DNA of 64,000 bases from the NCBI RefSeq assembly GCF_964340395.1, contig NC_135549.1, positions 14,687,342 through 14,751,341 on the forward strand, given 5' to 3'. Both the position numbers and the translations under genes were made by a program. Shown here one piece after another: positions 12,001-63,400 of this stretch. The DNA comes from Glandiceps talaboti (taxonomy: Eukaryota > Hemichordata > Enteropneusta > Spengelidae). Position 1 is the stretch's first letter. Every line of letters starts with the position of its first letter. The notes under the pieces were generated by a model that saw only the letters and a list, made by a program, of their open reading frames with translations, was not told the DNA's origin and ran no database searches.

Positions 12001-15000
12001 TTGATTTTCAAGGAGCACATGAGAGATAAAATTCTGATTTTCATGGAATGTGACAAACATTCAGGGGTATGCAGTTATGAAATGTAATGATCATGTGAGA
12101 TTGGTGGTATGTTGTTACAGCCTTACTAAAGTTTCAATGACAAATTCATACTTTCTGGTATGTAGACAATTAAAACTTTTGTTTCCGAAAGAAGATGCCT
12201 TGCCGTGAAAGTATTCAACAATGTTCAACCAAGACAGACACAATACTGCAAGCACCATAAATCTGTATTGAACAAATAGTGAGCGTCACAGGTCAAAGTT
12301 CACACTGAGAGAAATACAGCTGCAGGTCAATAAAATTGAAAATTTCACTTCTCACTTTGTAACACTTTAACTTTATTACGTGATATGTACACAATAACTT
12401 TGAACTATTGACTACAAATCATTAACAAGTAGACAGTTTTAGTATTTTTTTAATTTGAACAGAATATTGTGTAAACAGTGAATACTGGTTGCTGCATAGC
12501 AATGAGGTAATTTAATTCCTAACTCTTACAATTCAAGCTAAGTCTACAGTGTGTGCACTGACCTTACAGTACACTTCTCTCTTTTTTTTACTCCTAACCT
12601 TTCTCTGTGAAATCTGATCAACAACAAATTATATCTATTATACATATATAAGCTGTACACCAACTTTATAATAAAGCATATCTTATTTGCAAAACCTGTT
12701 TTATTTCAAATAAATGAAAAATTATTGTTTTTCTTATAATGGCATATGGCTATAGTGGTGTAGAGATAGAAGGGAAGGGGAACCTTATACATATAAATAT
12801 AAATATATATATATCTATATATAAATTAATTCATATGTTATATGAATTAATTTATATATAGAAATATATATGTTTATATGTATAAGGTTCCCTTTCCCTT
12901 CTATCTTTACACCATATACACCCACTGTACATGTAGCTGTATGCCATTATAAAGTGTCTAACTGGAGAGAACAGTGCTCGATGCAGTATTAGTAGCAGAG
13001 CATTGTAGACTTAATTCAAGGAATAAGGATGTTATAAGTCACTACTCAGAGTTTCACGCTTCTTTAGCAACCATCTGATGACTGTTAAATTGAGATTGTC
13101 CAGGTCAATATGTACAGGTAAATGTTTGTATATTCATTCCATAACAATATGGTTAGACTAAACTTTTTCTTACGGAGGTTTACTTTTATAGTTGCTAAGG
13201 AAATATTTATTTTCATGGCGGAGTTTGGAGACTAATTCGGACTTTTGTTCAATAGCATATATATATATATATATATGTGTGTGTACGTACGTGCATGCAT
13301 GCGTCCGTCCGTCCGTCCGTGTGTGTGTGTGCATGTAGTCTATATATGCATGCAGTTACACCTTTTTAAGAATTGTATTATTCCACATGTAATGGAATAA
13401 TATATGTTACAAATGTAGTGCAATAATGTAGGATAGCAAATAAATACAGTGAATCAGAGCATATTTCATCCACTCATACACCAATCCATACTATTGAAGT
13501 ATAAATGTGGTTATAAATATAGTTCTTACCATTGCAGACATACGTCTACAGACTTTAACTGGATTAGATCTCCCCTGTACTGCTAAACCTGACTCCAACA
13601 AGTTCATAGTGGCTTCAAATACCTCATCTTCAAACTGTAGGAGACAAAAGAAAATGAAATAACAAACAACTGATTTTCTTTTTTTGACCACTTGGAAACC
13701 ATTATCACTGATTTTTCAGAATGATACAAAATAACCAAGGCAAAAAGCCGTTGCTGAAATATTCATTGCTTTCGATGGTATATTACACTTTAGGTAATCT
13801 TGGATTCATAAGTCAAGCATATACCATTAGTTATCCTATTTTTTTTTTAAATTAAAAACTACCCCCATTTTCGAAACTTGATGATTGGATTAACCCAACT
13901 CCATTCATTAACAGCTCCCCCCCCCCCCAACCCCGACCAACATACTTGAGTTGAGTCCTACCTGACCAAAGTTCCATGGCCTTCCTGTAGGGTTACGATG
14001 GGAACCAACATAAATGAAACCAGTGTCGTTAAGAACATACTCTTCAAGCTGTTCTTCACTATCCAAATAAACTGCATCCTCTTGAAATGTAAAAGTACAA
14101 TGATTTATGTCAACAATTATTTGAGACATGCATAAAATGTTAATTATATGGACACCGACTCTGTAATAGTAGCAACATATTTAGAGTTGAAGTTATAACA
14201 TGGCAATTCCTACAAACTGATTATCAATTCTGCTTGATATATATATATTTCATTTTAATATTTACAATAATACTGTAAACCTAAATATTTTCACCACTAA
14301 ATTCTGTGATTTTACAGTCTTTAGATTGTTGGTGGTAGACTAATTTTTACTAATTACCAGACTTGTACATAATTGTACATGTTCATGTATAAAAGGGCAT
14401 TTTAATCCCTACCTATTTGTGTGTGTTTCTAGCGATATAAGTGAAAATAAGTCTTTAGCAAAAATTTCTAAGTTTACAGTTCTATCATAATATCTAGAAT
14501 TCTACTAAAAAACTATGTAAATGGAAATCAGTACCTTTACACCATGGGTTAAACAGCATGTACACAGGTTTGGATTGCCAAAGTGAGACGTACTCCTCAA
14601 GTCCATTATCTGTTTTACCAGCTCGGACAGATAAATTAAGGAAACATTTTCCAACAATGGCTGATGATGGCGACAGAATAGATAAAGACATAGTGCTACC
14701 AGATGCCTTCATCACCTGCACCTCCCATTTACCACTGTAATCTTCTCCATTGAATGGTATACGTATCAAGGTATCTTTCTTTAATGATGGACTCTCCCCT
14801 GAAATGTAATAAAAAATTATTTTCTTTAATGATGGCTTCTCCCCTAAATGAAAGATGAATTACTTACTTTAATAAATAGATTCTCTTCTGAAATGAACTC
14901 CCTGTACATGTATACAGGGTATCTTCCTTTAATTTGTCACTTTCTCCTTAAATAAAAAGATACTACACAAAGACTCCTTTTTCAATTATAAATTCTCTAC

Positions 15001-18000
15001 TGAAAACGAACTTTATATGTCTTTCTCTAATTGTTGATTCTCTCCTGAAATATCACAAAAAGCATAAACAGGTTGTCCTTCTTTAGTGCTGTTTTGCTCA
15101 CCTTATATTCTGTTTCTATGGTGTTGGCAAACAAATATGACACACCCCATCCAACCCCATCATCATCACACATTTTAATTATAATCTAGTTACTCTCTAC
15201 AAATATTCTATTAGTGGATATTATTTTCAATTATTCTGACATTAAAACAAAAATTAAGAGGCTATAAATTACTTGTACATTAAAGTTTGACACAGATATA
15301 ATTTCAAACCTACAAAAAAAGTACATGAGAGACAATCATGCCAGATGTTTATATAAAATGTCTGACTTTTAAAAATATTACATCAATCTTGTTATTTTTT
15401 TTAGTAATTTAAAACACTAAACCTGCAGCACCTGTGCATAAAACACAGACATTAGTTATTGAAACATGTCAAATTATAAACCATGGTGCAGACTAATTAG
15501 CTTTTATGGTGTATTCATATATACATGTATGGCATAAATTGAAGTAGACTTAAAAATAGATCACCATCTGTAATGACTATTCCTTCAATAACACTTTATA
15601 GCTACATAATATATCTCATCTTTTAATCCTAAATCATGTATCTTGTCAAACAAGCATCTGGACTATTTTGACATTTGTGTGCAGTACGTAGAACTTAAGT
15701 ATCATTATGGGTGAATTGCATGGTATGCTGTGTGCAGTATGTATAACTTAAGTATGGGTGAATTGCATGGTATGCTGCAGTTTGTTCATAGTCGTGTAAA
15801 CAGAACTAAAATTATTCAGGGATCAAAGGTCACATTGAGGTCACCAGTTGAAAGACTCAATTTCAGTGGTATTATCATGCACTTTGTTACCTCGACCAGA
15901 TATATTATGTCAATTCAGTAGAGCGCCATGACTTGTCTCTCGGCAATGAAATAAAAATATATTGATTGTGACCGTGAGAGTCATGCACTTTTGCTTTCAA
16001 GATATTTCTGGAAAATTTATTCTAATTTCATACAGAACATTACCATTCAAAGAATATATAAAAATAACAAATTACTGACTGGTATATAAACGCATAAGTG
16101 TAATTTTGACAAAATTTTAATACAAATAAAATAAAGATTTTTTTTTGCAACTGTAACAACTATTATCACTGAATCAGTTTTAATTATTCTTGAAAATAAC
16201 AAAGACAATTGTTTTTCACACCAAAATTTATTCTTAATCTGAGAATTTCTTTAAATACCTCAGAATGTTGAGAAAAGATTCAACGTGTAATTGTAATGTA
16301 AAATGTCATAACTCATATCGATATATTTATCCATAACAAATTATATAAAAATTGTGATCTTCAAATTTGATATTATAAACGTATGATGTATTGTAACCAT
16401 ATAAATTATTCAGTCAAACCATATTATAATATTCACTTTATTAAGTTTTAAGTCTTCAGTGTTTTTCTCCTGACATCTTACCTTCTCACCTTTTGTTTTG
16501 ACAAAATATGTCCTAAATATGATAGGGCGTTACCCATACATTATAAACATCTATTTAAAGAATTAATTAATTCAAGGAGACACCAGTTCAGTAGTATCAT
16601 ACCAGGCCCATGACCTTTGACCTGAATGAGGCTGCTGTGTTATGATGCCCTGCATCCCATATAGTAAACACATTTTGCACGCAAAATATGGAAGTTCGAT
16701 TTAGATTTTACGCTTCAAAGAATTTCATTCACTGAGTTCTGCAGTATAGCATATTCAGAATGGTTTAAAATTTTTTACATGCACTAAATATCCAGGCACT
16801 TAGTTTTAAGTAAGATATCATATTTTTAACTCTTCTAAATGCAACTCAAACACATAGTGTTTTGAACAAACTAAATGGCACATATACCTGAAAGACATGA
16901 AGCCCAAGTTAATGTGCGATTACAATTTCAACAAATAATGTTTTGAAATCATCACAATTCCCTGCAATCTATTAAACATATCCATAATCTTAAAGTATAC
17001 TTAAAGTATACTTGTCTCCTCAAGTTCATCAGTGAGGTTTTTTTTTTTTAAATATGACATATCCCAATCTTACTTAAAGAATGCTTATCTCTTGAGGGTT
17101 TTTTAAATGACATATCCCTAACTTGTCTCAAGTTCATTAGAGGACTGTGGTTTTTTAAGTGTGTTACAGAACGCAATATTAGGGTTCTTAAAATGAACCT
17201 TTAAAAAAGTGACATTAACACTCATATCCTTAGTTTTACTCAATAATACTACTTTATCTAAGTACAAAATGAAAGTAATGTCTTCTTAATCTTGTTCCAG
17301 CTTACTTTGTATATCATAATTTCCAAAAGTATCAAAACATACAACTTACCTAGAAGAATCTCCAAATTCACTTCTTGTTCATCAAGATTTACTGGTTGTT
17401 CAAACTCAACAACGATATAAAAGGACTGTCCCCTTCTAATGATTAGATTTGTCACTTCATAATCTGAAGTGTGATGTGCTGCTCGATTTGCTTCACATTT
17501 CAAATCAACTGATTTCACAACTGGTAGCTTTGCAATCTTTGGTTCTGGGAAAAAATTACAAATATTAAAAGTACATAATTATACATGTCAATAAATTAGT
17601 GATAAAATTAACTCTTTTGGAATCTAGTCTTTGAAGTGACTGTAGCTTTCATCTGAATCACTTTAACGTCATCAGTGTATTAGGATGTTATGCCGCTTAT
17701 GATGATTCAGACAACAGGTACACATATTTCAAAACTAGATTCCAAAAAGATAACTTGATCACTATTACATACACAATGTAATAAAATATCAAATCCAATT
17801 CAACTTCAATAAGGTGTATGAAATGATACCAACAGCATTATTTACGATAAAACAGACAGAATATACTTTTATCTCACAATTAGTTCTTTTACATTTTGAC
17901 TATATTAAATTACTTATAATACACTGAAAAGCAGAGTCTATACATTAATAACTATTAGTGAATTATATTTTGTCCATATGTCTAGGAAAGAAACAAAGAT

Positions 18001-20335
18001 GGCAGTCTCAGCACATTTTCCCATGGAACAGAAAATTGTCGCAATTCTACCATTTAGAATTATACAACTGTGGGCATTATTAAACAAAGTAATTTAAGAT
18101 CTATGTGCAAAATCCTTTTTTTTCTATACTGACCATTAAAAAAGCTTTTATAGTATTCAAAAGAATAAAATTTAAAACACTCTTCTGATGCCCATAGAAG
18201 TCTTATCAAGGTATGGCAAATAATCTCAGGCTGCAACAATATTAAAACTTTTATGGTATTCAAAGAATAAAATCTTTTCTGATTCCCATTGAAGTCTCAT
18301 CAAAGTCATACATACACAATTCATGGTGTCACTGTAATAAGGTCATAAATTGTATAGCAGATACGACCTTATTGCACTAAGGCTATGAATTGATCTCAGG
18401 CTACAACAAAATATAGCAATGCTAGGACAGCATGGAACTAATACAGCTGTCACTGTTAACAGGAGGAGGTTGGTCATTAATTAACATGAAATATACTGTG
18501 GAAATAAACTGCTTAAACTTTTGCTGTTATTTTGTTCAAGAAAACCTATTCTCAAGGATCACGATACAAATTTTTAAAATAGGGATCAAAATGTTATCAA
18601 AATTAAGTCATTTGAGAATCCAATATGGCTGCCGAATATTATGTTAATTTATAGGAAAATAAAACATTGTTAATTTCCTTGAAAACGAGACGATGGACCC
18701 CCAAATTTCTTTAATCATTTCAAAAGGAACAGACATTAGCTTCCATTTGGCAAAGTTATGAGAAAAAAAGAAAAAAGTTTGAGAGATTTTAAGAACTTTG
18801 ACCTTCGGTGAAATTCACGCCCAAGGTGCCTTGAACTTTGACCTTCGGTGAAATTCATGCTCAAGGTGCCTTGATCAACAGGCATTATAGAAGACTTGTT
18901 GATGCATCAGATAACACAACATAGATCAATATATCAACCAATTCATTCTCCTGGTAGTGAGATGCGTAGTGGGGCTCAGTGTGCTATGTTGGGGTCAACA
19001 CAGTCTAGATTTGAATAAAATAACTATAAATAGTTCCAGACAACAAAACAAATGTACTACATTATCAATATAGATGAACAAGTTTATCATATGCTGGTTT
19101 TTTTTTTTACTTCTATGGGTACTTTGATGAAGGCTACTGGAATTTCAAATTTTGCAAATTCAGGTATATACCATTTTACATGCAATTCATAGTCGAACTT
19201 AATTAGTAGCTTACTCTTGAATAATTCATAAAATTAATTTCAGCAACACAACATGTGGCAGATATTGTACATTTTGATACAGTGTTTTTGCTAAAGTTGG
19301 GGAACCATGGTAACAGAAAGAGGGGGGGGGGGTAAAAGTAGCAGTGTTGCCAATAGATTCTGTTTGAGAACCCAGTAAAATGGCATGGGAAACCCTGTAG
19401 ATTTTACCTACTTACCAACCTTAGCAAAAACACTGTGGTAGAAATATTCTTTAATACACACACATGTGGTCAAATTAACATACAGTGGAATGCTAATAAT
19501 ACGTAGTTTAGGCATACTTTCCCTTATGTAAATATGCTCTCCCTGCTCAAATAAAATCAACCATGTTGTTTTTGTCATTCAGTAAAACTATATTTGAGAT
19601 ATGTATTCCCTACACTTGAAAGCCATTTAGACAATCACCATCAGTTAGTTTGAGATGCAAATTAGCACATTTATATACATGTAAAGAATAATGAACTGAA
19701 ACAAGTCTTCATAGAAGATACAATAAGCCCACAAATACTTTACTTTATTAACTGAATGGACACATGATTTAATGAAATTGGTGGAAACATATAATTACTA
19801 CAAAGTGTCTGTGATATGCATGAAATGGCTTGATTTAGATAACTAACCCTGAAGGTCAAGGTCAAAGGTGTCTTAAAAGAAAGCTTGCTCCTGATAATAC
19901 CAGGGTAGACACTTGAATGACATCTATATATATTAGTTTTCGAGTTATGCAGTAAATATTTATTTTTAACTACAAATATGGCCACCATTTGGTCAAATTT
20001 GCATATGTTGCAAAACAAAGTGGCATGTATATGTCCCATATGATATGTCACCTTTGTGCAATGTTTTATTGAAATTGCATATCAGAGAAATGAGTATTGT
20101 ATTGCAATCTACAAATCAGCATTTTTAGTTTGCAATCTTTTTTGGGGGAGAAATCAAATTTTTAACCAATTTTTGATAGAAAATATTACACCATGGTCAC
20201 CTTGTCTTGAACACTTATCACTTTGCTAATATACAAAAAAATATACAATTAGAAATATCCCCATGAAATTTGTGACCATTCTCATTGTTTGTAAGTTTTA
20301 AGCCTTCTAACAAAACCACTCCACTCCAAACCAAA

Positions 20336-20367
<32 letters not shown>

Positions 20368-21074: not shown

Positions 21075-21949
21075 CTTGTGGAATGCTGTTTATACCCCGC
21101 GACCGACCGTACCTGTATTATGTTTGGCCCGATCTCAGTCTAATGAATGGTGTATTTTGAAAGTTTACGGTGCTGGCAGATCGAAGGTGGAACCAGTCAC
21201 ACGGTCTGTCTGCAAGTACAACCGTCCGTCGAGCGTCTGTGCAAGCGTACGTGTGGTTAACTTTAGTGGTACTGGTAGGAATGCTCAGTTTGACACAATA
21301 TATAATACGCTCCCGATCCCCACAAAACCTACGCGATGCGGGTGTCCAGTATACTAGTACTACTCGACTCCGAGACACCGGATGTAACATCAAAAATTTC
21401 AGCATCCATATGGGTACTTTACATAAAAGGAAATGAAGAGTGAATGGCAAGTTGCTCCCAAGACGTAAAGGTCATTCAAGGACTGACCGTGAACACCGCA
21501 AAATATGTGTGCAGATCATGAATGTTTTTACTTGCTATATCGAATATCGAATATCATGGGCAGCGCCCTCGGTGTTGATAATTTTATTAGGGTTTAAGCC
21601 TTTGCGAATTAAAACGGCAGATCAAGATTTCTGAGGTGGAGAAATTATCTGAGAATGATGTAAACGGGTTCATTAATCTAACTACTCTCGTTTAGAGGGA
21701 AGCTTTAGTTTTATAAATGAAAACTTACCTAATAAAATACTAGCTTACAAGTTCAAATTATCATTCTCAGTAGTGCTCATGAAAATGTGGCGAAATATTG
21801 CAAAGTGAATTGTTGACTTCTACAACAGTTGTACGTTGATATTCACCCCTCTTCCAACATCACATATGTTGTCATGACTACGACCCGAAGACATATCCAC
21901 GTTCTAGTCATCAACCAAACAACTAGAAATCATACCATCACGTTCTCCC
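21075..21949 (-). promoter_or_regulatory. Upstream region of the transglutaminase gene
   Basis: It contains noticeably more CG dinucleotides than its surroundings (about 20980-21360). On the minus strand TATAAA lies at 21094-21089, only 15 bases before the ATG. That is too close for that hexamer to serve as a TATA box and that ATG to be the start at once, so either it is not a promoter element or transcripts begin elsewhere. No other gene is seen here. Confidence 0.35.
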
Positions 21950-23910
21950 AATGGAACCTGTTGCAAGATTACGTACACAGAAAAATAAACCAAAAAAGGG
22001 GGACAAACCAGGACAAAAAGTTACAGCGGCACAGAGTACTTTAAAAGATATCCAATACCAGACTACATTCTTAGATGGGTGCGGAGCTGATTTTATGGAT
22101 AGGGGTAGATTGTTCCATAGAACAGCACCACTGTAGTGAAATGCCCGTTTCCCATATTCAGTTATAAATGTAGGGAATACTAGGGATGTATATGTTACTT
22201 TTACTGGCCTGTCTTGTTTTATGAAGATGAATTTGGTTGGAAAGGCTGAAAATTCCAGTGACGTAACTAGGTGCATTACCTGTTAAGGATTTGTAGACGA
22301 GTTTTGCCAGCTGGTGATTCCTTCTAATTTGAGGTCGAGGGCTGTCCCAACCCAAGTTTTTCATAAACCCGACCCGTACTAGTATCACGGGTAACTTCGA
22401 GGAGCAGTCGACCAGCTCGTTTATGGAGGAGCTCAAGTGTCTTCCAATATTTTTGATTCGTATTACACCATACATTCGCAGCATAATCGAAATGGGGAAG
22501 GACTAAGGTACTGAACATCATCTTCCTAAGTCCCAACGGCAAAACGTGTCTGATTCTCGACAGTAGACCAAGTTTTAGAGAAATTTTAGCAGAAATATTT
22601 CGTTGAAACTTTCAATTTCGAATCCCGCCAACCCCCTATATATTTAAAATCAAACACTTGCTCTGCTAGCTCTCCCTGTACTCGAAGTTGCAAAACTGGG
22701 TTTAGTTGTAGTCTTTGAAAAGAACCGAAAAGCATGGTCTTGGTTTTATTTGTATTCAATGTTAACTTGTTTGAGTCAAGCCAAGCCTTGACATGCATTA
22801 TTTCCTCTGTAGGTGTCACTACAATATCGGCAGCTGATTTGCTTGAATAGAAAAATAGCCGTGCCATCTGTATACATAATTACTTGAGCCTTTATAACTG
22901 TTTCCGGCAAGTCATTGATTTAAAGGGTGAAAAATAAAGGTCCCAGGATTGAACCCGCTTGGGATACCCACAAGAAATGCCCATGCTTTCTGATAATGTG
23001 AAATTTAACTGTTATAATTGTGAACAGAACCATGGCAATGTACTGCCTTGTATACCAAATTGATATAGTCCATGATCGACTGTATCGAATGCTTGCTTCA
23101 GAATCTGATATAGAAATATTGGGTGACCCTAAAACGAATGACAACCCGAATGACGGAAAACGAATGACAGCATTTCCAGTATGTAAACAGTGGAATGACA
23201 CCCTTTTCTACATTCAGTTAGTTGAATGACACACTCTGCACTGTAGAACCACTGGAATGACAGCCGCCACTTTATAAAATAAGTGGAATGACAGCATTTT
23301 TAATGCTTTGGAACTAGAATGACAGCATTTCTAGTAGGTAAACAGTGGAATGACACCCTTTTCTACATTTAGTTAGTTGAATGACACACTCAGCACTGTA
23401 AAACCAGTGGCATGACAGCCGCCACTCTATAAATTAAGTGGAATGACAGCATTTCCAATACTTTGGAACTGGAATGACAGCATTTCCAGTAGGTAAACAG
23501 TGGAATGACACCCCTTTCTACATTAAGTTAGTTGAATGACACCCTCTGCACCGTAAAACCATGCCAGTGGAATGACAGCCGCACCATGACAGTGAGTTGT
23601 TTACGATCAATATTATTCAATAAAATATATTTAACATGATTGAGTAAGAGCCGTTGCCGTGGAGTAACCTGGCCTAAATCCTGACTGATATCTATTCACA
23701 ATGTCATTCTCATCTAGATAGCTGTACAGCTGATCATGGACAGCTCTTTCCAATATCTTAGAGACTTCAAGGAGGATATATAGATATTTGTCGGTAGTTA
23801 CAAACGTAAGTTCCACCCCCTTCTTTAAATAATGGCACAACCCTAGCTCGTTTCCACTCTGCAGGAACCTGTCCTGTAGCTGTAGAGGCAGATTAAACAT
23901 ATATGTCAAT
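21950..23910 (-). mobile_element. Decayed CR1/jockey-like LINE reverse transcriptase
   Basis: Minus-strand fragments appear in the order expected for a non-LTR reverse transcriptase: KILERAVHDQLYSYLDENDI with QSGFRPG (23.75 kb), ILGPLFFTL (22.95 kb), MYTDGTAIF in place of the YADD box (22.9 kb), AWLDSNKLTLNTNKTKTMLF (22.75 kb), PHFDYAANVW (22.5 kb), and the C-terminal KLVYKSLTGNAPSYV with LWNNLPLSIKSAPHPS (22.1-22.3 kb). Several frame changes and stops separate them, and a 155-bp tandem repeat interrupts the element at 23130-23590. It is a dead copy. The superfamily is inferred from motif style, not from a search. Confidence 0.85.
23130..23590. repeat. 155-bp tandem repeat with GGAATGACA motif
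   Basis: GAATGACAGCATTTCCAGTA-like starts occur at about 23163, 23318 and 23473, a 155-bp period with almost three units. Each unit contains several GGAATGACA/GAATGACAC sub-blocks. Confidence 0.85.
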
Positions 23911-24970
23911 GAAGAAGATATACACGGAGCCGCATATTTAAGTAACCGTGCACTGACATTGTCAATACCAGTGGCCTTATATTAGCAATACAGTTTCGAC
24001 AATTGCCTACAAACGTACTCAGTGGTTATGGGTTATAAGAACACTGAAATCTAATATAATTTTAGACAGTAAAACTCCATAAATATGTTGATAATATATA
24101 CAATCACTGTATCCATCAAACCATCTCACTAATTCCATTCACATAAATGTATTATTTATTTCTATTAGAAATATAAAGGGTGTTCAGGTCGGTCGGTTGG
24201 TTAAAATCTTCTTTTTTCTTTAAAAAATAAATAAATATATGAGCATGTATTGGTGATACTTTCAATTCATAATTGTACTTTTAACAGTCTGAATGACTCA
24301 GAAATGACAAAGTGAGAAGGAAACTTTGAATCATGTGTTTTATCACATTTCTAGCAATAAATGATAACTTTCGCTCAGATCCAGACATCGAGACGAGACC
24401 ACGCACTCGAGTGCGAATCTCACATTGTGATTTGTTTATAATCCTGCCGTAGAGGGCCTCAATTTAAAATACTCCAAATACTCACGCCAGCAGAGAACGA
24501 AGAAATGTAGGGTCGGTCGATTTATCAGAAACATAGAATTTAGTAAAGGCCACCCAAATACCATAGAATTCTATTTGAGATTTTCAATAGGTATATCATT
24601 TGGCCACTTAATGTCACGGATACCATAGCCATTAAACCACAACTTACAAATATGCTAATAATATACCAAAGATTACCAATGCAAACTGTACTTGTAGGTG
24701 ATAATTCATTATATTGGTTGTAATATACGCAACTTTATGATAATCCACTACCAAAATAAACATAAACATAAACGTAAACGTTTTAATTTACACACCCCTA
24801 CATGCTTACCTTTACACTTTCCACTATGCACTATTGTGGTCTGACATTCTCGGCAGCATTTAGAGAAAACAGTGAATACACGGTAGTCTTCATAAAGACA
24901 AATTATTTAAAAGTTGGTAGACACATTCTTAAAGATATCATGGCATTCAAATTAAAAATGAATTGATTGA
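23911..24970. other. Intergenic; no gene seen
   Basis: AT-rich sequence with no convincing coding or repeat structure. Confidence 0.5.
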
Positions 24971-24974
24971 TTAA

Positions 24975-25010
24975 TTGGTTGGTTGGTTGGTTGGTCGGTT
25001 GGTTGGTTGG

Positions 25011-38552: not shown

Positions 38553-38686
<134 letters not shown>

Positions 38687-38717
38687 AGGGTAGAAGAAAA
38701 TCAAGTCGGGTTTTTCG

Positions 38718-38759
38718 TCTCTACAAGCCTGTTTCGTGAGTAAATCACTCGTCAGGAGA
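38718..38759 (-). ncRNA. Type I hammerhead ribozyme motif, mirror copy
   Basis: Exact reverse-complement copy of 38778-38819 in the left arm of the palindrome, so the minus strand carries the same complete core. Its tail is absent, as the arm runs straight into (AT)n at 38682. Confidence 0.75.
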
Positions 38760-38777
38760 TGGTGATGTACATCAACA

Positions 38778-38819
38778 TCTCCTGACGAGTGATTTACTCA
38801 CGAAACAGGCTTGTAGAGA
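38778..38819 (+). ncRNA. Type I hammerhead ribozyme motif
   Basis: CTGACGA at 38782-38788; stem II 38789-38792 with 38798-38801; GAAA at 38802-38805; stem III A38805-T38814, C38806-G38813 and A38807-T38812 with a GGCT loop; cleavage predicted after A38815; stem I 38816-38819 with 38778-38781. All core positions fit. The tiny stem III is typical of metazoan hammerheads in Penelope-like elements and retrozymes. The family tail ATCGAGCACT begins at 38881. Confidence 0.8.
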
Positions 38820-38863
38820 CGAAAAACCCGACTTGATTTTCTTCTACCCTCAACATATACTCC

Positions 38864-38919
38864 GCTCTGCGTGCAGACGTATCGAGCACTGTGCTACGGA
38901 CAAATCTTACCACTGACTT

Positions 38920-38921
<2 letters not shown>
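38864..38921 (+). repeat. Tail of the hammerhead repeat
   Basis: GCTCTGC, then ATCGAGCACTGTGCTACGG and a short run into (AT)n at 38922. Matched by tails at 12973-13001 (minus), 51410-51442, 51565-51590 and 61513-61545. Confidence 0.7.

Positions 38922-38984
<63 letters not shown>
38922..38984. repeat. (AT)n microsatellite
   Basis: About 31 AT dinucleotides directly after the hammerhead-repeat tail. Confidence 0.98.
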
Positions 38985-46869: not shown

Positions 46870-49800
46870 CATCTTTTATTGGGGACAGTTATACATTGAG
46901 TAGGGGAACAGCTATACTTGACTTTTCTGAGGAAATACTTGTACTACTTTCATGAGGCGAGGGTCAATAACGATACAACTACATGTATATTTTTATAAGG
47001 AGATGACTACATTTTACTTTGATTGAGGAACAGTTACACTTTACTTTGATCATGATTGGGGAACAGTTACACTTTACTTTGATTAAGGAACAGTTACACT
47101 TTGATTGGGGAACAGTTACACTTTACTTTGATTGAATAACAGTTGCACTTTACTTTGAGGAACAGTTACACTTTACTTTCATTGGGAATAGATACACTTT
47201 ACTTTGAATGGGAACAGTTACACTTTACTTTGATTGAGGAACAGTTAGACTTTGATTGGGGAACAGTTACACTTCACTTTGATTGAGGAACAGTTACACT
47301 TTACTTTGATTGAGGAACAGTTACACTTTACTTTGATTGAGGAACAGTTATATTTTACTTTCATTGGGAATAGTTACACTTTACTTTTAATGGGGAACAG
47401 TTACACTTTACTTTGATTGAGGAACAGTTACACTTTACTTTCATTGGGAATAGATACACTTTACTTTGAATGGGGAACAGTTACACTTTACTTTGATCAT
47501 GATTGGGGAACAGTTACACTTTACTTTAATTGAGGAACAGTTACACTTTACTTTGATTGGGGAACAGTTACACTTTACTTTGATTGGGGAACAGTTACAC
47601 TTTACTTTGATCATAATTGGGGAACAGTTACACTTTACTTTAATTAAGGAACAGTTACACTTTGATTGGGGAACAGTTACACTTTGATTGAAGAACAGTT
47701 ACACTTTACTTTGATTGAAGAACAGTTACACTTTACTTTGAATGGGAACAGTTACACTTCACTTTGATTGAGGAACAGTTACACTATACTTTGGTTGAGG
47801 AACAGTTACACTTTACGTTGATTGGGGAATAGTTAGACTTTACTTTGAGGAACAGTTACACTTTACTTTGATTGGGGAATAGTTGCACTTTACGTTGATT
47901 GGGGAATAGTTGCACTTTACTTTGACGAACAATTACACTTTTCTTTGAGGAACAGTTACACTTTACTTTGACGAAGAGTTACACTTTTACTTTGATTGGG
48001 GAACAGCTACACTTTATTTTGATTGGGGAACAGTTACACTTTACTTTGATTGGGGAACAGCTACACTTTTACTTTGATTGGCAAACAGTTACACTTTACT
48101 TTGATTGGGGAACAGTTACACTTTACTTTGATTGGGGAACAGTTACAATTTTACTTTGATTGGGGAACAGTTACACTTTACTTTGATTGGGGAACAGTTA
48201 CACTTTACTTTGATTGGGGAACAGTTACACTATACTTTGATTGGTAAACAGTTACACTTTACTTTGATTGGGGAACAGTTACACTTTTCTTTGATTGGGG
48301 AACAGTTACACTTTTCTTTGATTGGTAAACAGTTACACTTTACTTTGATTGGGGAACAGTTACACTTTACTTTGATTGGGGAACAGTTACACTTTACTTT
48401 GATTGGGGAACAGTTACACTATGCTTTGATTGGGGAACAGTTACACTTTTCTTTGATTGGGGAACAGTTACACTTTACTTTGATTGGGGAACAGTTACAC
48501 TTTACTTTGATTGAGGAACATTTGCACTTTACTTTGATTGAGGAACAGCTACACTTTTCTTTGGCGAACAGTTACACTTTACTTTGATTGGGGAACAGTT
48601 ACACTTTACGTTGATTGGGGAATAGTTGCACTTTACTTTGATTGGGGAACAGTTGCACTTTACTTTGATTGAGGAACAGTTGCACTTTACTTTGATTGGC
48701 AAACAGTTACACTTTACTTTGGTTGAGGAACATTTGCACTTTACTTTGATTGAGGAACAGTTACACTTTACTTTGATTGGGGAACAGTTACACTTTACTT
48801 TTAATGGGGAACAGTTACAATTTTACTTTGATTGGGGAACAGCTACACTTTTACTTTGATTGGCAAACAGTTACACTTTACTTTTAATGGGGAACAGCTA
48901 CACTTTTACTTTGATTGGGGAACAGCTACACTTTTACTTTGATTGGCAAACAGTTACACTTTACTTTGATTGGGGAACAGTTACACTTTACTTTGATTGG
49001 GGAACAGTTACAATTTTACTTTGATTGGGGAACAGTTACATTTTACTTTGATTGGGGAACAGTTACACTTTACTTTGATTGGGGAACAGTTACACTTTAC
49101 TTTGATTGGGGAACAGTTACACTATACGTTGATTGGGGAACAGTTACACTTTACTTTGATTGGGGAACAGTTACACTTTTCTTTGATTGGGGAACAGTTA
49201 CACTTTTCTTTGATTGGTAAACAGTTACACTTTACTTTGATTGGCAAAGAGTTACACTTTACTTTGATTGGGGAACAGTTACACTTTACTTTGATTGGGG
49301 AACAGTTACACTTTACTTTGATTGGGGAACAGTTACACTATACTTTGATTGGGGAACAGTTACACTACTTTGATTGGGGAACAGTTACACTTTACTTTGA
49401 TTGGGGAACAGTTACAATTTTACTTTGATTGGGGAACAGTTACACTTTACTTTGATTGGGGAACAGTTACACTTTACTTTGATTGGGGAACAGTTACACT
49501 ATACTTTGATTGGGGAACAGTTACACTTTACTTTGATTGAGGAACAGCTACACTTTTCTTTGGCGAACAGTTACACTTTACTTTGATTGGGGAACAGTTA
49601 CACTTTACATTGATTGGGGAATAGTTGCACTTTACTTTGATTGGGGAACAGTTGCACTTTACTTTGATTGAGGAACAGTTGCACTTTACTTTGATTGGCA
49701 AACAGTTACACTTTACATTGATTGGGGAACAGTTACACTTTACTTTGATTGGGGAACAGTTACACTATACTTTGATTGGGGAACAGTTACACTTTACTTT

Positions 49801-50110
49801 GATTGAGGAACAGCTACACTTTTCTTTGGCGAACAGTTACACTTTACTTTGATTGGGGAACAGTTACACTTTACATTGATTGGGGAATAGTTGCACTTTA
49901 CTTTGATTGGGGAACAGTTACACTTTACTTTGATTGGGGAACAGTTACACTTTTCTTTGATTGGGGAACAGTTACACTTTTCTTTGATTGGGGAACAGTT
50001 GCACTTTACTTTGAGGAACACATTACTTTGATTGAGGAAAGGTTAACCCTTATTTTGATTAGAAATGTTTCTTTACTTTTATTTTGCTAGGGGAATAGTC
50101 TCACTTTACT
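46870..50110. repeat. 27-bp minisatellite, over 100 copies
   Basis: The core GGGGAACAGTTACACTTTAC is joined by TTTGATT to make a 27-bp unit. About 3 kb (47010-50030) is nearly continuous and the edges decay. Because 27 is divisible by 3, long stop-free frames appear on the plus strand (GEQLHFTLI repeats) and in places on the minus strand. Single-base slips switch frame, so they are not taken as genes. Variant blocks recur at about 48540, 49540 and 49805, showing higher-order duplication. Confidence 0.97.
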
Positions 50111-50499
50111 CTGACAGGGAATAGTCTGGATGCCAACTTGGTTTCACACTAAACCACATCTGGTCAAAGTCCCTCAATCCGCACAAAAGGTTGTTCATCC
50201 CATCAGTGAACCCCAGCTGCTATAGTGATGAACAGTGTATAAGTAGCACCCAGAGCTGACAAATATATCATTACATAACTGCCCCAATAACCACTATCTT
50301 TATGAGGGCTGTGTTATTGGTTAGAATTTTGTGATTCATTAAAAATAAAGGTATGATGTCAATGACTGTTTGGGTGGATGTGTATGTATTTTAAATTACA
50401 TTAAATTGCAGTTCGTGCATCTCAGGACTTGTAGTGTAACAACTTTGACTATACTGTGAGTGGAGATGTAAATAGTAACGATTCTGTATAGGAACTAGA

Positions 50500-50790
50500 C
50501 TAACCAGGGAACAGTTGCACTTTACTTTGCTTTTGGAACAGTTACATTTTACTTTGATTGAGGAACAGTTACTCTGTAATTTGATTGGGGTACAGTTGTA
50601 CTTTACTTTGATAGGGGGACAGTAACTGTTTTACTTTAGTTTGATTGGAGAACAGTTACATTTTTTTTTGATTGGTGAACACTTATACTTTACTTTGATT
50701 GGTAAAAGTCATGCTTTATTTTGATGAGGGGAAGAGTTACAATTTACTTTCCTCTAATAACAGTTATACTTTACTTTGATTGCAAGCCTT
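50500..50790. repeat. Decayed outlying copies of the 27-bp minisatellite
   Basis: About nine recognisable but mutated units of GGAACAGTT(A/G)CACTTTAC, separated from the main array by about 400 bp of ordinary sequence. Confidence 0.9.
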
Positions 50791-51316
50791 TACACTCTAT
50801 TTTCATAAGGCAAAAACTGTACATTACTTTTAAAACTTGTGTGTTGAATGGTAAATTGTGGCAATACGGCAATTTTTTATATTTTTCTCCATTGCATTGT
50901 CCATAATTGCTCCTGGTGTACTTTGAATGAGCACTATATTACCTTTGAATAAATGTTAATTTTGTGCCAAACAAACCAAAGTGGTTTTAGCAGTGTATTA
51001 TTACTACACTATACTTGCTACCATGGTAACTGAGCAACATTTGAGTAGATTACGTCATATGATGTGAAACATGATCATCTCGCATGTATGGAGATTTTTT
51101 GTACAAATAATTATTTGTAAAATAAAACTTCTTTTAGTAATTTCCCAATGTATTTCCTTTTGTAAATATTTTTGCCTGGTTTCCATGGCAACCCAATTTT
51201 TTAATAACTTTTATGAATATATATACACACATATGTATTCTGTGTCAGTGAACACACATAAGTTATGTACATAAAGCAGAATGTATTAGCCAACGACTAC
51301 TATTAAACCACACTTT
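50791..51316. other. Intergenic; no gene seen
   Basis: AT-rich; no repeat or coding signal recognised. Confidence 0.5.
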
Positions 51317-51356
51317 TACACCTGACGATCCTTCTGGTGAAACGGTCCGTAGTGTA
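51317..51356 (+). ncRNA. Hammerhead ribozyme motif, second copy
   Basis: CTGACGA at 51322-51328; GAAA at 51339-51342; stem III 51342-51344 with 51348-51350 and a 3-nt loop; cleavage predicted after A51351; stem I of five pairs, 51352-51356 with 51317-51321. Stem II is weak (CC/GG with a U-U mismatch at its base), so activity is doubtful. The tail ATCAAGCACT begins at 51423, 72 nt after the predicted cleavage base, and leads into a GT/AT/AC microsatellite at about 51456. Confidence 0.6.
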
Positions 51357-51455
51357 TTAAATCCACAATGTAATATCAGACTCGTCTTCTTTCATTTTTA
51401 TGTATGATAGCTCTCCAAGGTGATCAAGCACTCTACTTGGCGAAAGAAGAATGAA

Positions 51456-51486
51456 TGTGTGTGTATATATACACACACACACACAG
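51456..51486. repeat. GT/AT/AC short microsatellite
   Basis: TGTGTGTATATATACACACA-type self-complementary repeat after the second hammerhead repeat. Confidence 0.9.
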
Positions 51487-51564
51487 AGTGATCAGTGTGA
51501 TGATTGCAACAGCATGAAACAACTGTTCTTGTGAATGTTGCTTGATACTGTGTTTTTTACACAA

Positions 51565-51590
51565 CTCTACATATGTATTGAGCACTGTTT
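51565..51590 (+). repeat. Tail-only copy of the hammerhead repeat
   Basis: CTCTACATATGTATTGAGCA followed by CTGTTT matches the GCTCT...AT(C/T)GAGCACTGT tail. No ribozyme core upstream other than that at 51317. Confidence 0.45.
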
Positions 51591-51811
51591 ATTCCAGTTT
51601 TGACATTTTACGTATACCGAGTTTATATGTGTACATTATATACTAGTATACATGTATGTTTATTAATATGAAAATGTTTCAACTGTTATATTTTTTGAAA
51701 GGTGATACATTTTTATAGAATTCAATAAAGCATTATTATACTATTGTCACAGTTTCCATTCGTATTTATTCCCACGAGATAGAGCCAGGAAAGGACTACA
51801 GGAATGACGTA

Positions 51812-54038: not shown

Positions 54039-54113
54039 CATACTGCAGCCAGTAGCCCTCAACGACAATAGGCTGGGTAACCGACACTAAACGTCGAGCA
54101 CGGAACGTTATAT

Positions 54114-54140
54114 TGAGGGCGCCCCGTCACGGCGTACCTT
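54114..54140 (-). repeat. Dispersed repeat C, copy 2
   Basis: GAGGGCGCCCCGTCACGGCG, inverted relative to 34846-34872. Confidence 0.7.
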
Positions 54141-55631: not shown

Positions 55632-56538
55632 GATTGCGATTCACTTCGTCCCAATTTCAACTCCTCCCATTTCAACTCTCCCCAATTTCAACTCACCCCA
55701 TTTTCAACACGCCCCAATTTAAACTTACCCCATTTTCAACTCTCCCCAATTTAAACTCGCGCTATTTTCAACTCTCCCCAATTTAAACTCGCTCTATTTT
55801 TAACTTGCCCCAATTTAAACTTGCCCCATTTTCAACTTTCCCCAATTTAAACTCACCCTATTTTTAACTCGCCCCAAATTCAACTCACCCCATTTTCAAC
55901 TCGTCCCAACAACACTAGTAAATGGTTATCTAAACAATACATGGACTCGAAGTACAAGGACCAAAAAAATTACATGATTTTATGTACGTGGCCAGTCGAA
56001 GCATAGCAAATATAGCATTTCATAGCAGAAAGTGGTGGTCGTATGCATGTGGGTTTTGGCAAGGTGTTTGCTAGATCTAGCACTAATACTAGCACAGATA
56101 GACAACGGTGTTTACAACTTTTTCCCAGTCATGAAATATCACTTTTCGCATTATGACTTAATGTTTACAATGCAAATAATAATGATAATAACCAGGGAGA
56201 ATATTTGTGACTGACACGCTTACGACTTTTGCGTACTGTAGGTTTTGGAGACGCGTCTCCTCTCCTGAGTTAACGCAACTGGTTTGAATAACGGAAGTAT
56301 TGTAGTACATACTGTATATCCTGTTTACAGCACAAGTGGTACTTCATTTAGTGGAATACAATATTCCATAGACCCTCCAAACTGAGTACTACTAGCTTTG
56401 AGTTTCATATATGCACAAGTAAATTGTAATGTGAAGAGTTGGGGAGAGTTGAAAATGGGGCGAGTTGAAATTTGGGCGAGTTGAAAATGGGGCGAGTTGA
56501 AATGGGACGAGTTGAAATTGGGACGAGTTGATCCTACC
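55632..56538. mobile_element. Putative element with long repetitive inverted ends
   Basis: The left 280 bp is a degenerate tandem of CCCCAATTT(A/C)AACTC / CCCCATTTTCAACTC units; 56440-56530 carries the same units in the opposite orientation (GAGTTGAAAATGGGGCGAG). The direct repeat CCATACTTA flanks the whole (55623-55631 and 56539-56547), suggesting a 9-bp target-site duplication. No coding capacity. Mutator-like is possible; unconfirmed. Confidence 0.5.
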
Positions 56539-56989
56539 CCATACTTAAACCTTAATATCTTAGCTGTCTGAGTCTGTATGTGTATATTTAGTTAGCTATT
56601 CTATACTGTATACAATGTACTAATGCTAATTAGGTCAGGCCCATAGCCTCAAGCTAAAGTGTCAGCATGCACACTCTCAGGACTTTTAAGTGTTAGTACC
56701 TTACTGTGCAGTAGCCTGTTTATGCACAACACTGTAAACAGGCTAGTACTACATGTAAACTGATATTTCAAATTGTTTTAGAGTGAAACCCATAATCTAT
56801 TTTTATATGTATACAGCACCAGGAATAGCTTTTAGGAGAATATATCGTACAGTAGGGGGTCCTATGTCTGGAAAGTTCCATATTAGGTGGTAGATTAGGA
56901 TATGTGGTTCTCCTTACATGACACCTACCAACCATGTCACTTGCTACCAAGCAAACATGTCAGAAAGATTTTGTCCTCATTCAATCTAT

Positions 56990-57150
56990 CATTCACTCAC
57001 TCACTCACTCACTCACTCACTCACTCACTCACTCACTCACTCACTCACTCACTCACTCACTCACTCACTCACTCACTCACTCACTCACTCACTCACTCAC
57101 TCACTCACTCACTCACTCACTCACTCACTCACTCACTCACTCACTCACTC
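56990..57150. repeat. (ACTC)n microsatellite
   Basis: About 40 perfect tetranucleotides. Confidence 0.98.
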
Positions 57151-58769
57151 AATCTATTAACCGATCAATTAATTTATAAAACTGACTAAAAATACTATTA
57201 TGAGTTCAGAGGCTGTGTACAGTTACAATTTAAGTTGAAGGCTTGAACCAGTCTAAGCTATTGATAAATGTTTAGGTTCTCAGTTTTGCCATGTAAGATA
57301 AGATAAGATAACACTTTATTTTAGCTGTTTAGAAAATTTTACATTTCTAATTTGGTATTTAAACAAAATAAAGTTAATAATGATCTATGAAATATAAATA
57401 TTAAAATATACAGTAGTTCTAGTGTGTGTCTATTGACTACATGTATCATCCAGGTATATGTAGAGAGCGGTTATAATATCCTTATGTTTTGATTGTAGTA
57501 TATATCTAAATTGCTCTCCTCTATCTAAGTTTATAAAGTTTGAGTTGAGGGTAGTGATAATACTAAACATTTTTTCTCTTTGTTTTGTATATAATTTACA
57601 ATGAATTAGATGTTGTAATATAAAGTAGACATAGTGATAGTGCTATACTCAAACTAAGGTACAGCCATCCCATGCATGGATAGCACTTTGTTTCTGTAAT
57701 GTGTAAGGTATGGCGTTACGGGGTACCCTCATATATAGGTCAACCTATCTAGGAGGGGAACAACACTACATATCTTGTAGACTATATAATACAGTCTAAT
57801 TTACCTCATGTAACCAAGTAAAGCCTGTAAACAGGGTATACATATATGGTAATTTGTTAGTTATGATAATCAGTAATGGGATATCCCAAAATACCAGCAA
57901 ACATCACATTAAAATGAATACATAATACACTGGTCAACAATCAGGAACATTTGAGATGGTAGTTCTAATTTGATCCAAATATTTATTTTGCTGTAATGTA
58001 CTGGTATACATTGTATTTGTCAACTTGTTCAATTGAAATACGATTTTATATGAATGGATAGATGGGTATGTTGGTCTGATGGAGGGATGGAGGGAGGGAG
58101 GGAGGGATTATGGATGGATGGATGGATGGATGGATACATATGACTGTATTTGTGTAAGTTTGATATATTACCTGTTTGAAGGAGTTGTAACATTTTGTTG
58201 ACTGCTCACGTCTCCATTATTGACCTGCATATCTGCATATCACTTACATGCCAGCTACAAACTGATAAAATGTATACACTTTGTGTAAGGTTTCTCATGG
58301 TAACAGTAGTTTACTTTGCTTTGTAAGCTAGAAACTTTGCCCAGGTATTTACAGACACTACATTAGCAAGTTCACTTTTAAGGAAGGTGATAAAATCATA
58401 GGGTCTATGATAAAATCTACTTGATGTCAAAGGTCAAAGGTCAAAGACAAATATATATTAATATACATACAGATGTATATGTACATGTATATGAACTGCG
58501 CATAGTTTCAGCTGGTAGACTTTAACATATAATACAATTGTTACTTTTACCATGGAAAGCTTTATTATGAATATTTTAAAATATATTATTAATTGCAACA
58601 ACGCTCAATACTTCCCATAGCTTAAAAAGATAGAGGGAGAAACAGAAATAAAAAAACACACAAAACAGAATTCTTAACTCCCAGATTTAAAACAAAAAAG
58701 ACAAAGCTGGCAATACTATACATGGAACATGTGATATAAACCACTGGATATGACTTTGACATGTTATAC
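57151..58769. other. Intergenic; no gene seen
   Basis: AT-rich with a short GGAG/GGAT microsatellite at 58078-58134. Confidence 0.5.
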
Positions 58770-59220
58770 TATGAGAAACACTGAAGTAAAGCACTTTCTC
58801 TATGTGGTACACTCATTTATAGCATTCACATTACAGTGAGTAACACTGAAGTAAAGCACTTTCTCTATGTGGTACACTCATTTATAGCATTCACATTACA
58901 GTGAGTAACACTGAAGTAAAGCACTTTCTCTATATGCTACACTCATTTAATTTATAGCATTCACATTACAGTGAGTAACACTGAAGTAAAGCACTTTCTC
59001 TATATGCTACACTCATTTATAGCATTCACATTACAGTGAGTAACACTGAAGTAAAGCACTTTCTCTATGTACTACACTCATTTATAGCATTCATATTACA
59101 ATGAGTAACACTGAAGTAAAGCACTTTCTCTATGTACTACACTCGTTTATAGCATTCATATTACAATGAGTAACACTGAAGTAAAGCACTTTCTATATGT
59201 GCTACACTCATGTACAGCAT
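58770..59220. repeat. 64-66 bp tandem repeat, about 7 copies
   Basis: Unit AACACTGAAGTAAAGCACTT with TCTCTATGTG, TACACTCATTTATAGCATTC and a TTACAGTGAGT joint. Sequence drifts gradually toward the right end. Confidence 0.93.
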
Positions 59221-59221
59221 T

Positions 59222-59334
59222 CATATCAAGTATAAATGTATACTGTTTCAATTGATTTATTTACAAGCCTAGCATGTGGCCTTTCTAATTTAGTCAATTA
59301 GTAAATGAAACAGTATACTTTTACACTTGATATG
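59222..59334. repeat. 29-bp inverted repeat
   Basis: CATATCAAGTATAAATGTAT... (59222-59250) is complementary at 27 of 29 positions to 59306-59334. It directly follows the 65-bp array. Confidence 0.85.
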
Positions 59335-60423
59335 GATGCTACAAATAATAGTGGTACATACAGAAAACGCTTTACTTTTGGTGTTATGAGTTATATAAGG
59401 TGATACTAAGTAAAGACTCTATTTTCATTTCAGTACACGTTTAACCTTTGTACACATTTGGATGCCTAACACTATTTATTGTTCTTGACAGGCAAACTAT
59501 TAAATTGTTTTTCCATCTTCGATAAGTTACAGTTCGAAGTTTGACTAAACATATTCTAAAACATTGTGCCATGTAATTGTGAGTAGAGAACAATGGACAA
59601 ACCTACATACATGCTGTCGATAAACATGACATGTTTACAGAAGTAAAACAAACTCTCCTGTCTTTATTTATTTGTTTAGTTTCATTGCATAAACCAACAA
59701 CTAATACATTGAATGTCAGTAATAATAGGTACTAATCAAGTTGAATTATAGGACCATGGTTGAAATCACTCACTAATCTGTCAAACCATGTATACACAGC
59801 TGCAAATATATCAGTCAATGTGTTGCATAGATTTACATTGTTCTTGTAAAGAAAGAATCAATCATTTGAAACTTACACAATCAAAAAGTCTATAGATATA
59901 TAAATGTAATATAATAATTTATTTATTGTAATAATTGATTCTTTATTATTTATTTATTCTTTATTATTTATTCAACAAAAATGAGTGTTTATTAAAAAGT
60001 AGTCGTAAATAAAAAGGGACTTGCAATAGGTTATATATTTGACTTTTGTTTGGATTGTCTAATTTATACTGCCATACAGCCATGACATAACTTGTCAGTA
60101 TGCACAGTAGTCTCCTTAGAACGTTGGACAAGTAGAACTCATAACAAGTAGTTACGTACATGTAGAAGAACTAGGAAAGAGTATCTGATACCATTTTTGC
60201 AGAAAATGAGGTTGACGAGTATTATGATTTTCATTTTATATCGAGAGGATTTCTATAAATTACATGAGTGCTTGGCTGTTCTTACTTTTTTTTCAGGGAG
60301 AACACGTAGTCAAATTGAAGAATTCTTTTCTTTTCTTTCAGTGTTTTAGATTTCAGTTTTCATCATCTTCAATAATGTAGTGAAAAAGTTAATTTCAATT
60401 ATTTATTTTTGTTTCCATAACAG
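59335..60423. other. 5' flank or first intron of the SLC26 gene
   Basis: No coding sequence. The acceptor TTTCCATAACAG at 60423 shows that at least one non-coding exon lies upstream, but I could not place it. Confidence 0.5.
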
Positions 60424-63400
60424 GTAATACCATGAATGATAAAACAGGTTTAGATTCAGAATGCGTGGAACTCCACCAAAGAGCAACTTATCATGTTTCC
60501 AGACCAATATACACCGATGATGAATTCAAGCAGGGATTCTTACTGCCTAAAAAAGAGGAACCCAGCCGGTGTCAACAGGTTGGAAAATATTTAACAAAAC
60601 AATGTGCATGTTCAACCACATGTTTGAAAAACTTTCTCTTCAGCAAGTTGCCGATTTTGGAGTGGTTACCAAAGTACCAGATACGAGATGACTTGCTGGG
60701 TGATATTTTGGCCGGATTTACGGTGTCTGTTTTGAACATACCACAAAGTAAGTGACTGAATGTGAGTCTTAAAATGACATAAGGTCTAAAAAAAAATGCT
60801 TTGGTTCCGGTTACCTGACCCCATCTAGTTTTTCACGCTGACCCTAAACTTTTTTTACGTATTCAAGAAAAAAGTAATAAAATTGCAAAAATTGTGAAGT
60901 CTTGCAAAAAATAGTAAATACGGAAACTGACATCAACTTAAAAAAGACAATATGAAACTATTCTTCCAATCTGTAATGGTTGTATATCAGATGAGAAGTA
61001 TTAATCAATACCACAGAGACCGTTTGGAAAACAGCGGAAAACAAAACTACCTGAACTAGACATTCACAAATAATAATTTTTTTGTTAAATCTACCTACCC
61101 CCCCACCTATTCTAAAATTGAGTGTAATCGGAACCACCCAATCTTTTTTGTTAGGCCTAATAGTAATGTTGACGGATGTATTTATAGTGATAACAATTTT
61201 TGAAGAATTGCACACTGTTACAGAAAATATGATACACCTGTATAAATATATTATTAGATTCCATATGTAACTTTGGTCTGGGACAGTTTTTGTATTTGCA
61301 TATTTATATGTTCCCAATTTTATGTTGGCCTGGAGCCATAGTCAAACAATAAATAATCATATATATATAATTTATAATTAAATTATAAATTATATATATA
61401 TATATATTATTTTTTTTATATATAATTTATGTAAATGAATAAATATATAATATAATAAAATAATATAATCGAAAGTTGAGGAGATCAGAGATTATATATT
61501 ATATAATGATATGCTACTAATATTGCATTGAGCACTGTTCTCTCTAGAGAGATGCCTTTATTACTATAACAGTACCACCTGTCAAACAAGTCATTTATAC
61601 ACAAAAACAAAACAATTCACATTTTTCATTGACTTTTCAAATATATTTTTCTGATTATTTTATATTATAGGTATGGCATTTGCTATGTTGGCCAATATGC
61701 CACCTATCTATGGACTTTACACAGCTTTCTTTCCCATATTAGTGTATGCATTCTTTGGTACTTCAAGACATATGGCATTTGGTAAGATATGTGTATAGTT
61801 CTAAACATTTGGTGATTGTGTAGTCTTTAACAAGTCAAACTTTTTGCTGGTTGTCATAGAAATGTTTAGACTATAGCATACGTTGTGTCCCTCTCCCGCC
61901 CTCGCTGGAGAGGGGTTGACTGATGTGTGAGGGTGACCATGGTGTAACTTACAGACTAAAAAACGTTTCATAAGATTAACTTTGCTACAAAAAATTCAGA
62001 ATAATGTAAAATGAAGCGTATATTTGCTGTCTATCTAACTGTCTCTCTGTCTGTCTGTCAATACCATTAGACCGATTGCCTTTGCATTTGGTGGGGACAT
62101 ATCTCATGTATTTGGTGAGTGTAGATAGGGAATTGTTCAAATCAAAATAATCACAACAGAGGTGTGTGATTTGGGTCAAAAAACCATAACCTCAACTGAA
62201 ATTTGGTTAGTATGAGTATAAATCTGAGTATGAATCAACTTTTCAAGACAGAATAAAATCTTTCCAAACAAATCCTGGAAATTACATCATCAATCATTTC
62301 CCAAACACCAAAGTTGTGCTACAACACCATTGGCACTATTTTTTTTAGTCCCCGCCAGACGAAGTCCGGGACAGGGACTTATGGATTGGGTTCCGTCTGT
62401 CCGTGCGTCCGTCCATCCGTCCGTCTGTCCATCCGTCCGTCCGTCTGTCCCCAGCCGTTTCTTGGAGATGCCTGGACCGATTTTTTTCAAACTTGGTACA
62501 GGGGCAACATACGGCATACATATGCACGTCAATTTGTTTCATGATACGATCCAATATGGCCGCCTGGCAGCCATTTTGTTTGCAAATTTTCCCTGTCTAA
62601 AGCCATAACTCATACATGCTTGAACAGATCTCATTCAAAGTTGGTATTAGGACATTGTTCTATGACATACATGTGCACATTCATTGTTGTCATGATACGA
62701 TCCAATATGGCCGCCTAGCAGCCATTTTGTTTGCGAATTTTCCATGTCCAAAACCATAACTCGGACATGCTTGAACAGATCTCATTCAAAGTTGGTATTA
62801 GGACAGTGTACTATGACATACATGTGCATATCCATTTCATCGTGATACAATCCAATATGGCCACCTGGCAGCCATTTTGTTTGCAATTTTTCTATATCCA
62901 AACCCATAACTCAGACATGCTTGAACAGATCTCATTCAAAGTTGGTATTAAAACAGTGTTCTATGACATACATGTGCATATCCATTTGTTGTCATGATAC
63001 GAGCCAATATGGCCGCCTAGCAGCTATTTTGTTTGTGAATTTTCCATGTCCAAAGCCATAACTCGGACTTGGTTGAACAGATCTCATTCAAAGTTGGTAT
63101 TAGGACAGTGTTCTATGACATACATGTGCATATTCATTGTTGTTGTGATACGATCCAATATGGCCGCCTGGCAGCCATTTTGTTTGCGATTTTTCTATGT
63201 CCAAAGCCACAATTCAGACATGCTTGAACAGATCTCATTCAAAGTTGGTATTAGGACAGTGTTCTATGACATACATGTGCATATCCATTTTCGTTGTGAT
63301 ACGATCCCCCATACATGACCCATCCTTTATTGTTGTAGGCATGTTCCATGTCCAACAAGCAGACACAACATATCTAAGTCTGTTTGATTTAGGTTCACAA

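Follow-up and report, generated by a model that had tools for sequence, protein, structure and literature searches.

The 64,000-nt window that we analysed from Glandiceps talaboti (NC_135549.1, assembly GCF_964340395.1, positions 14,687,342–14,751,341 of the forward strand) holds transglutaminase and sulfate-permease exons and is rich in microsatellite DNA. A satellite of ~27 bp units (TACACTTTACTTTGATTGGGGAACAGT, >110 copies) occupies positions 47008–50782, and a tandem array with a 151-bp unit (~5 copies) lies at 62515–63307; all coordinates are positions within the window. Five copies of a short element, named u13, u38, u51a, u51b, and u61, are found at the positions given in Table 1. One of these, u13, is situated between exons for the transglutaminase domain, and u61 has a match to the sulfate-permease domain (~61670–61798) ~100 nt downstream of it; both are therefore probably intronic.

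Table 1. Positions of the five copies and of their parts within the window.
Feature	Positions	Strand	Remarks
u13 unit, (AT)n tract to 3' end	12940–13256	−	3' end placed by likeness
u13 decayed hammerhead	13038–13081	−	core CAGATGG; cut position 13043; alone not above chance
u13 tail motif ATCGAGCACT	12973–12982	−	61 nt past cut position
u38 inverted arm, head to head with direct arm, without tail	38678–38768	−	outer 5 nt also within (TA)n
u38 second, antisense hammerhead, in inverted arm	38716–38760	−	cut after 38722
u38 direct arm: hammerhead, spacer, tail, element 3' end	38769–38921	+	(TA)n begins at 38922
u38 hammerhead motif	38777–38821	+	cut after 38815; core CTGACGA...GAAAC; GUA site
u38 tail motif ATCGAGCACT	38881–38890	+	66 nt past cut
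u51a insert	51232–51463	+	bounded by 14-nt direct repeat TATATATACACACA, 51218–51231 and 51464–51477
u51a hammerhead motif	51317–51356	+	cut after 51351; U.U at stem II base
u51a tail motif ATCAAGCACT	51423–51432	+	72 nt past cut
u51b, adjoins u51a	51487–51617	+	3' end placed by likeness
u51b decayed hammerhead	51497–51527	+	core GTGATGA; cut position 51527; stem I unformed; relaxed scan
u51b tail motif ATTGAGCACT	51577–51586	+	50 nt past cut position
u61 truncated copy, tail only	61512–61568	+	motif 61527–61536; 3' end placed by likeness; 33 nt 94% like u13

Hammerhead motifs and the tail that follows them

The tail motif, AT(C/T)(G/A)AGCACT, occurs at five sites in the window; 200 Markov shuffles gave an expectation of 0.74 and never more than 3. 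Four of the five tails have a hammerhead, or the relic of one, upstream on the same strand at a distance of 50–72 nt. The layout of hammerhead, spacer, and tail claimed in the preliminary description for three loci, with cuts at 38815 (+), 51351 (+), and 13043 (−) and spacings of 66, 72, and 61 nt, was reproduced, and the fourth pairing is that of u51b (cut position 51527, 50 nt). Hence, of two copies previously taken to consist of a tail only, u61 indeed has no hammerhead, whereas the tail at 51577 is preceded by a decayed one. Searched as a single pattern, hammerhead plus tail matched twice in the window and not once in 100 shuffles. When the five tails were placed randomly in 200,000 draws, at most two of the five ribozyme cuts had a tail 45–80 nt downstream, compared with the four of five observed; this test is partly post hoc, because the 45–80 nt range was picked after the spacings had been seen, 13043 was supplied by the preliminary description, and 51527 came from a relaxed scan. 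In addition, u13 and u61 have 33 nt in common at 94% identity. Thus, the dispersed family is genuine.

The hammerheads were compared with shuffled sequence in three scans. A strict scan returned two sites, both inside the 38.8-kb palindrome (none in 40 shuffles), and missed 51351 and 13043. Scored scanning gave 28 for both 38815 and 38722 and 24 for 51351, compared with 22.5 for the best site of 20 shuffles; 13043 scored 16, and sites scoring at least 16 were present in 14 of the 20 shuffles. By itself, the hammerhead at 13043 is within chance, and nothing but its location ahead of a tail makes it credible. The relaxed scan, which did not recover 13043, found four sites (shuffle mean 0.93, maximum 3, 30 shuffles), all of them within the described units and two in one palindrome.

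Hammerhead cores are intact at two sites in u38 and one in u51a, decayed in u13 and u51b, and absent from u61. The ribozyme sequence varies among copies, with stem II pairing kept despite the change (GUGA/UCAC, CC/GG, UGC/GCA, and GCU/AGC); stem I is broken in u51b. A U.U stands at the base of stem II in u51a, u51b, and u13, and in the motifs a short helix III with 2–3 pairs is possible. Judged by sequence, the motif is a minimal type I hammerhead, and these sites are putative ribozymes. The u13 core, CAGATGG, departs from CTGANGA by two changes in the invariant core, so the 13-kb ribozyme is presumably dead. Minimum-energy folds of the isolated segments contained a complete hammerhead in 0 of 4 cases. 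Rfam returned no match in the window at the gathering threshold, and the 27 weak matches at E up to 10 included no hammerhead.

The palindromic copy, the 3' ends, and the flanks

The u38 copy contains a 182-bp palindrome whose 91-nt arms (38678–38768 and 38769–38859) meet between 38768 and 38769 and differ by a single mismatch (38762/38775). Because of the palindrome, both strands carry an intact hammerhead core. The tail is present on the direct arm only, which extends 62 nt past the palindrome before (TA)n begins; the inverted arm passes into (TA)n 39–44 nt after its own cut. This arrangement of a head-to-head inverted arm, palindromic junction, and one-sided tail is found in one of the five copies; a search for an inverted arm at the other loci (11-nt exact seed) returned none, only AT/GT tracts and short palindromes. 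With one mismatch in 91 paired positions, the u38 copy looks young. The earlier characterization of the family as old and repeatedly mobilised suits the decayed copies at 13, 51.5, and 61 kb and does not seem to suit the one at 38.8 kb. Palindromes of 12 nt lie upstream of the ribozyme in u38 (38763–38774, TGATGTACATCA, at the palindrome centre) and in u51a (51263–51274, TTATGTACATAA); palindromes at the 5' ends of pseudo-LTRs (pLTRs) are known in some Adineta Penelope-like elements (PLEs), as described in passages of PMC3846280.

The 3' end of u38 was set where (TA)n begins and that of u51a where a GT/TA tract begins; those of u13, u51b, and u61 were placed by likeness to the other copies. 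Measured in this way, the element ends 106 nt after the cut in u38, 103 nt in u51a, 103 nt in u13, and 90 nt in u51b, and the stretch from tail start to element end, inclusive, is 41, 32, 43, and 41 nt in u38, u51a, u13, and u51b, respectively. The simple repeat had been thought to come straight after the tail motif. Instead, these four inserts run on for another 22–33 nt beyond the 10-nt motif (with the ends of u13 and u51b placed by likeness), and in u13 ~70 nt of ordinary sequence precede the AT-rich palindrome.

The 5' flanks are 83–100% AT in all four copies measured, compared with 65.6% for the window, and the fifth copy, u51b, follows a TA/CA tract. The AT content of the 3' flank is 100% for u38, 63% for u51a, 53% for u13, 73% for u51b, and 63% for u61, exceeding the window value in two of five copies. 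An AT-rich target preference is therefore only half borne out: it holds for the 5' flanks and not clearly for the 3' flanks. The truncated copy u61 begins inside the tail region, adjoining AT-rich DNA. The direct repeat that bounds u51a has no further occurrence on the + strand of the window and may be a target duplication or a coincidence within microsatellite.

Coding potential, relatives, and origin of the units

Pfam searches found no reverse transcriptase (RT) or GIY-YIG domain at E up to 0.01 in six frames over ~47.3 kb of the 64 kb, which included at least 2 kb on either side of every unit; across 4.9–10.6, 29.7–36.5, 46.2–50.1, and 63.7–64.0 kb (~16.7 kb) the screen covered single ORFs, and a decayed PLE RT may escape Pfam. 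It follows, for the part screened, that no coding part links these ends to a PLE and that the copies are not autonomous PLEs; PLE ends are still allowed, as absence of the coding part is expected after 5' truncation. Elsewhere in the window, an ORF at 23631–23981 (−) resembles by eye a fragment of a LINE reverse transcriptase, with no match in Pfam.

In searches for relatives, no part of the window was similar to the anole PLE template (best blastn E 1.1) or to the start of its protein (best tblastn E 2.0). A protein search with the reading frame through u38 gave no match. In IMG/VR, the u38 ribozyme pattern and two tail patterns each had 0 matches. A search there for hammerhead plus tail gave 21 stretches, which were rejected, as none resembled the window elements and ribozyme-like stems I and III were present only in contig L015; the hammerhead-like motif of that contig (7114–7228, −) has a 6-bp stem I, an 8-bp stem III, and a stem II one base out of register. 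Twelve matches in a genomic contig collection, all to bacterial records, were also set aside, the rough chance estimate being ~14 with stem pairing not part of the count. The plasmid collection gave no match. Overall, no relatives were found in viral, bacterial, archaeal, and plasmid collections, and a string search of the literature for letter strings from u38 and u13 found no occurrence.

From their anatomy, on which membership of the window copies was judged, the units are probably the 3' ends (pLTR plus the 3' extension known in the PLE literature as the tail) of 5'-truncated PLE insertions or short non-autonomous derivatives of PLEs. The preliminary description had offered two readings, a retrozyme and a PLE end; the inverted arms, the one-sided tail, the ribozyme-to-3'-end distance that is similar in three units, the AT-rich 5' flanks, and the truncation favour the second. 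Metazoan non-LTR retrozymes are short and non-coding, bear a type I hammerhead, form circular RNA, and are mobilised in trans by PLEs or LINEs. The window units are likewise small and non-coding, with a short helix III that has a 3–6 nt loop and, in u51a, u51b, and u13, a U.U at the stem II base as in an axolotl retrozyme hammerhead (passages of PMC7229834). Those passages report retrozymes as ~150–450 bp tandem repeats with a ribozyme in each monomer and, in what they cover, do not mention a constant 3' tail or an inverted arm; in the window, no tandem array (periods up to 500) lies over any unit. Moreover, inverted arms with a palindrome have been described for PLEs (passages of PMC3846280). 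The adjacent u51a and u51b show no blastn similarity beyond microsatellite among the best 60 matches listed. Lacking tandem monomers, the units fit a retrozyme less well, and we consider that origin unlikely.

It is less probable still that the units are a SINE-like family with a hammerhead, whose 3' end was borrowed from another retroelement and whose tail is the recognition end. The copies are short and dispersed and have a common 3' end, and the schistosome Sm-alpha repeat (named in PMC6155905) is a comparable SINE-like hammerhead family; however, the ribozyme varies between copies, and ARAGORN, the sole Pol III-related check, found no tRNA in the window. That the 38.8-kb copy is a DNA element of foldback or MITE-like type, with chance likeness of ribozyme and tail elsewhere, would explain a near-perfect palindrome within a TA tract but is very improbable, given a tail that lies outside the palindrome, a motif repeated at four other places, a ribozyme-tail combination absent from the 100 shuffles, and at most two of five pairings under random placement.

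The units are most likely truncated PLE insertions, with 3' ends that mark internal initiation of reverse transcription. On this model, PLE copies standing in tandem, or partly so, would give transcripts that bear the hammerhead, and the PLE protein would nick AT-rich DNA and begin reverse transcription within the RNA, ~100 nt past the ribozyme cut. An early stop of cDNA synthesis would then leave copies truncated at the 5' end. The head-to-head inverted copy without a tail at 38.8 kb may have arisen when the cDNA, or else its template, folded back on itself.

A candidate tail hairpin and comparison with known elements

We also considered, as a tentative and rather doubtful proposal, that the tail forms a bulged stem-loop preserved among ribozyme-bearing families that have diverged, where it would act in cis as a signal for PLE protein binding and internal RT start, hammerhead and hairpin together forming one conserved 3' module. 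The candidate hairpin consists of a lower stem GCUC/GAGC, a two-nucleotide pyrimidine bulge, and a variable inner stem. Under shuffling, P was 0.002 for u38, 0.054 for u13, 0.138 for u51b, 0.177 for u51a, and 0.788 for u61, and the sum over the four copies without u61 gave P = 0.0008 (shuffling) and 0.004 (compared with random window stretches), for an architecture drawn after inspection of the copies. In u51a and u51b, the top-scoring pairing differs from the local hairpin drawn by eye. These values are a lead, hinting weakly that the tail holds a conserved bulged hairpin. The E-values that nhmmer gave the five tails were discarded as evidence, the profile having been made from the same five (next best match, E 2). 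A similar tail may be present in cnidarian genomes.

If the tail is an RT start signal, the start of insertion relative to the ribozyme could be read from sequence in another animal genome, and the anole in vitro result would thereby become comparable across animals. As a genome signature for PLE remnants without coding sequence, we suggest a hammerhead, 50–72 nt, the tail, and a 3' end ~30–40 nt further on.

The units look like a known kind of mobile element and not a new kind, and the copy at 38.8 kb looks like a good head-to-head pLTR-like pair. They are similar to PLEs of the Penelope/Poseidon type in having a type I hammerhead close to the 3' end, 5' truncation, and AT-rich 5' flanks; in parts of a curation guide (PMC8969392), the traits named for PLEs are truncation at the 5' end, inverted pLTRs, and short extensions at the 3' end. 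Unlike PLEs, the window units have no attached ORF, and unlike PLE hammerheads, described as being without helix III or without tertiary contacts, those in the window can form the short helix III. Terminons, which are relatives of PLEs, also have hammerheads beside simple repeats at the 3' end (passages of PMC6431247), but in the window these repeats are not telomeric, being TA/CA microsatellites, and the screened part of the window has no large ORFs.

For the anole PLE (PMC11167929), the stated position of the hammerhead cut is 26 bp beyond the start codon, and reverse transcription begins at 111–118 of the ORF, which places the cut 82–92 nt before RT start, a range that depends on how the 26 is counted. 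The distances from cut to 3' end in the window, 103–106 nt in three units and 90 nt in u51b, are of the same order. The anole element has AT-rich targets, a trait not clearly seen in the 3' flanks of the window units, and two RT start sites enclose its genomic "tail"; its hammerhead cleaves only with protein added, and cleavage is dispensable for insertion in vitro. The closest match that we found is between u38 and the Adineta PLEs, whose inverted pLTRs, according to passages of PMC3846280, are mostly head to head, with junction palindromes and an optional 31-bp tail on one of the two, and were attributed by the authors to self-priming. The u38 tail runs 62 nt past the inverted arm, compared with the published 30–40 bp, and its head-to-head arms, palindromic junction, and one-sided tail are those of the Adineta elements.
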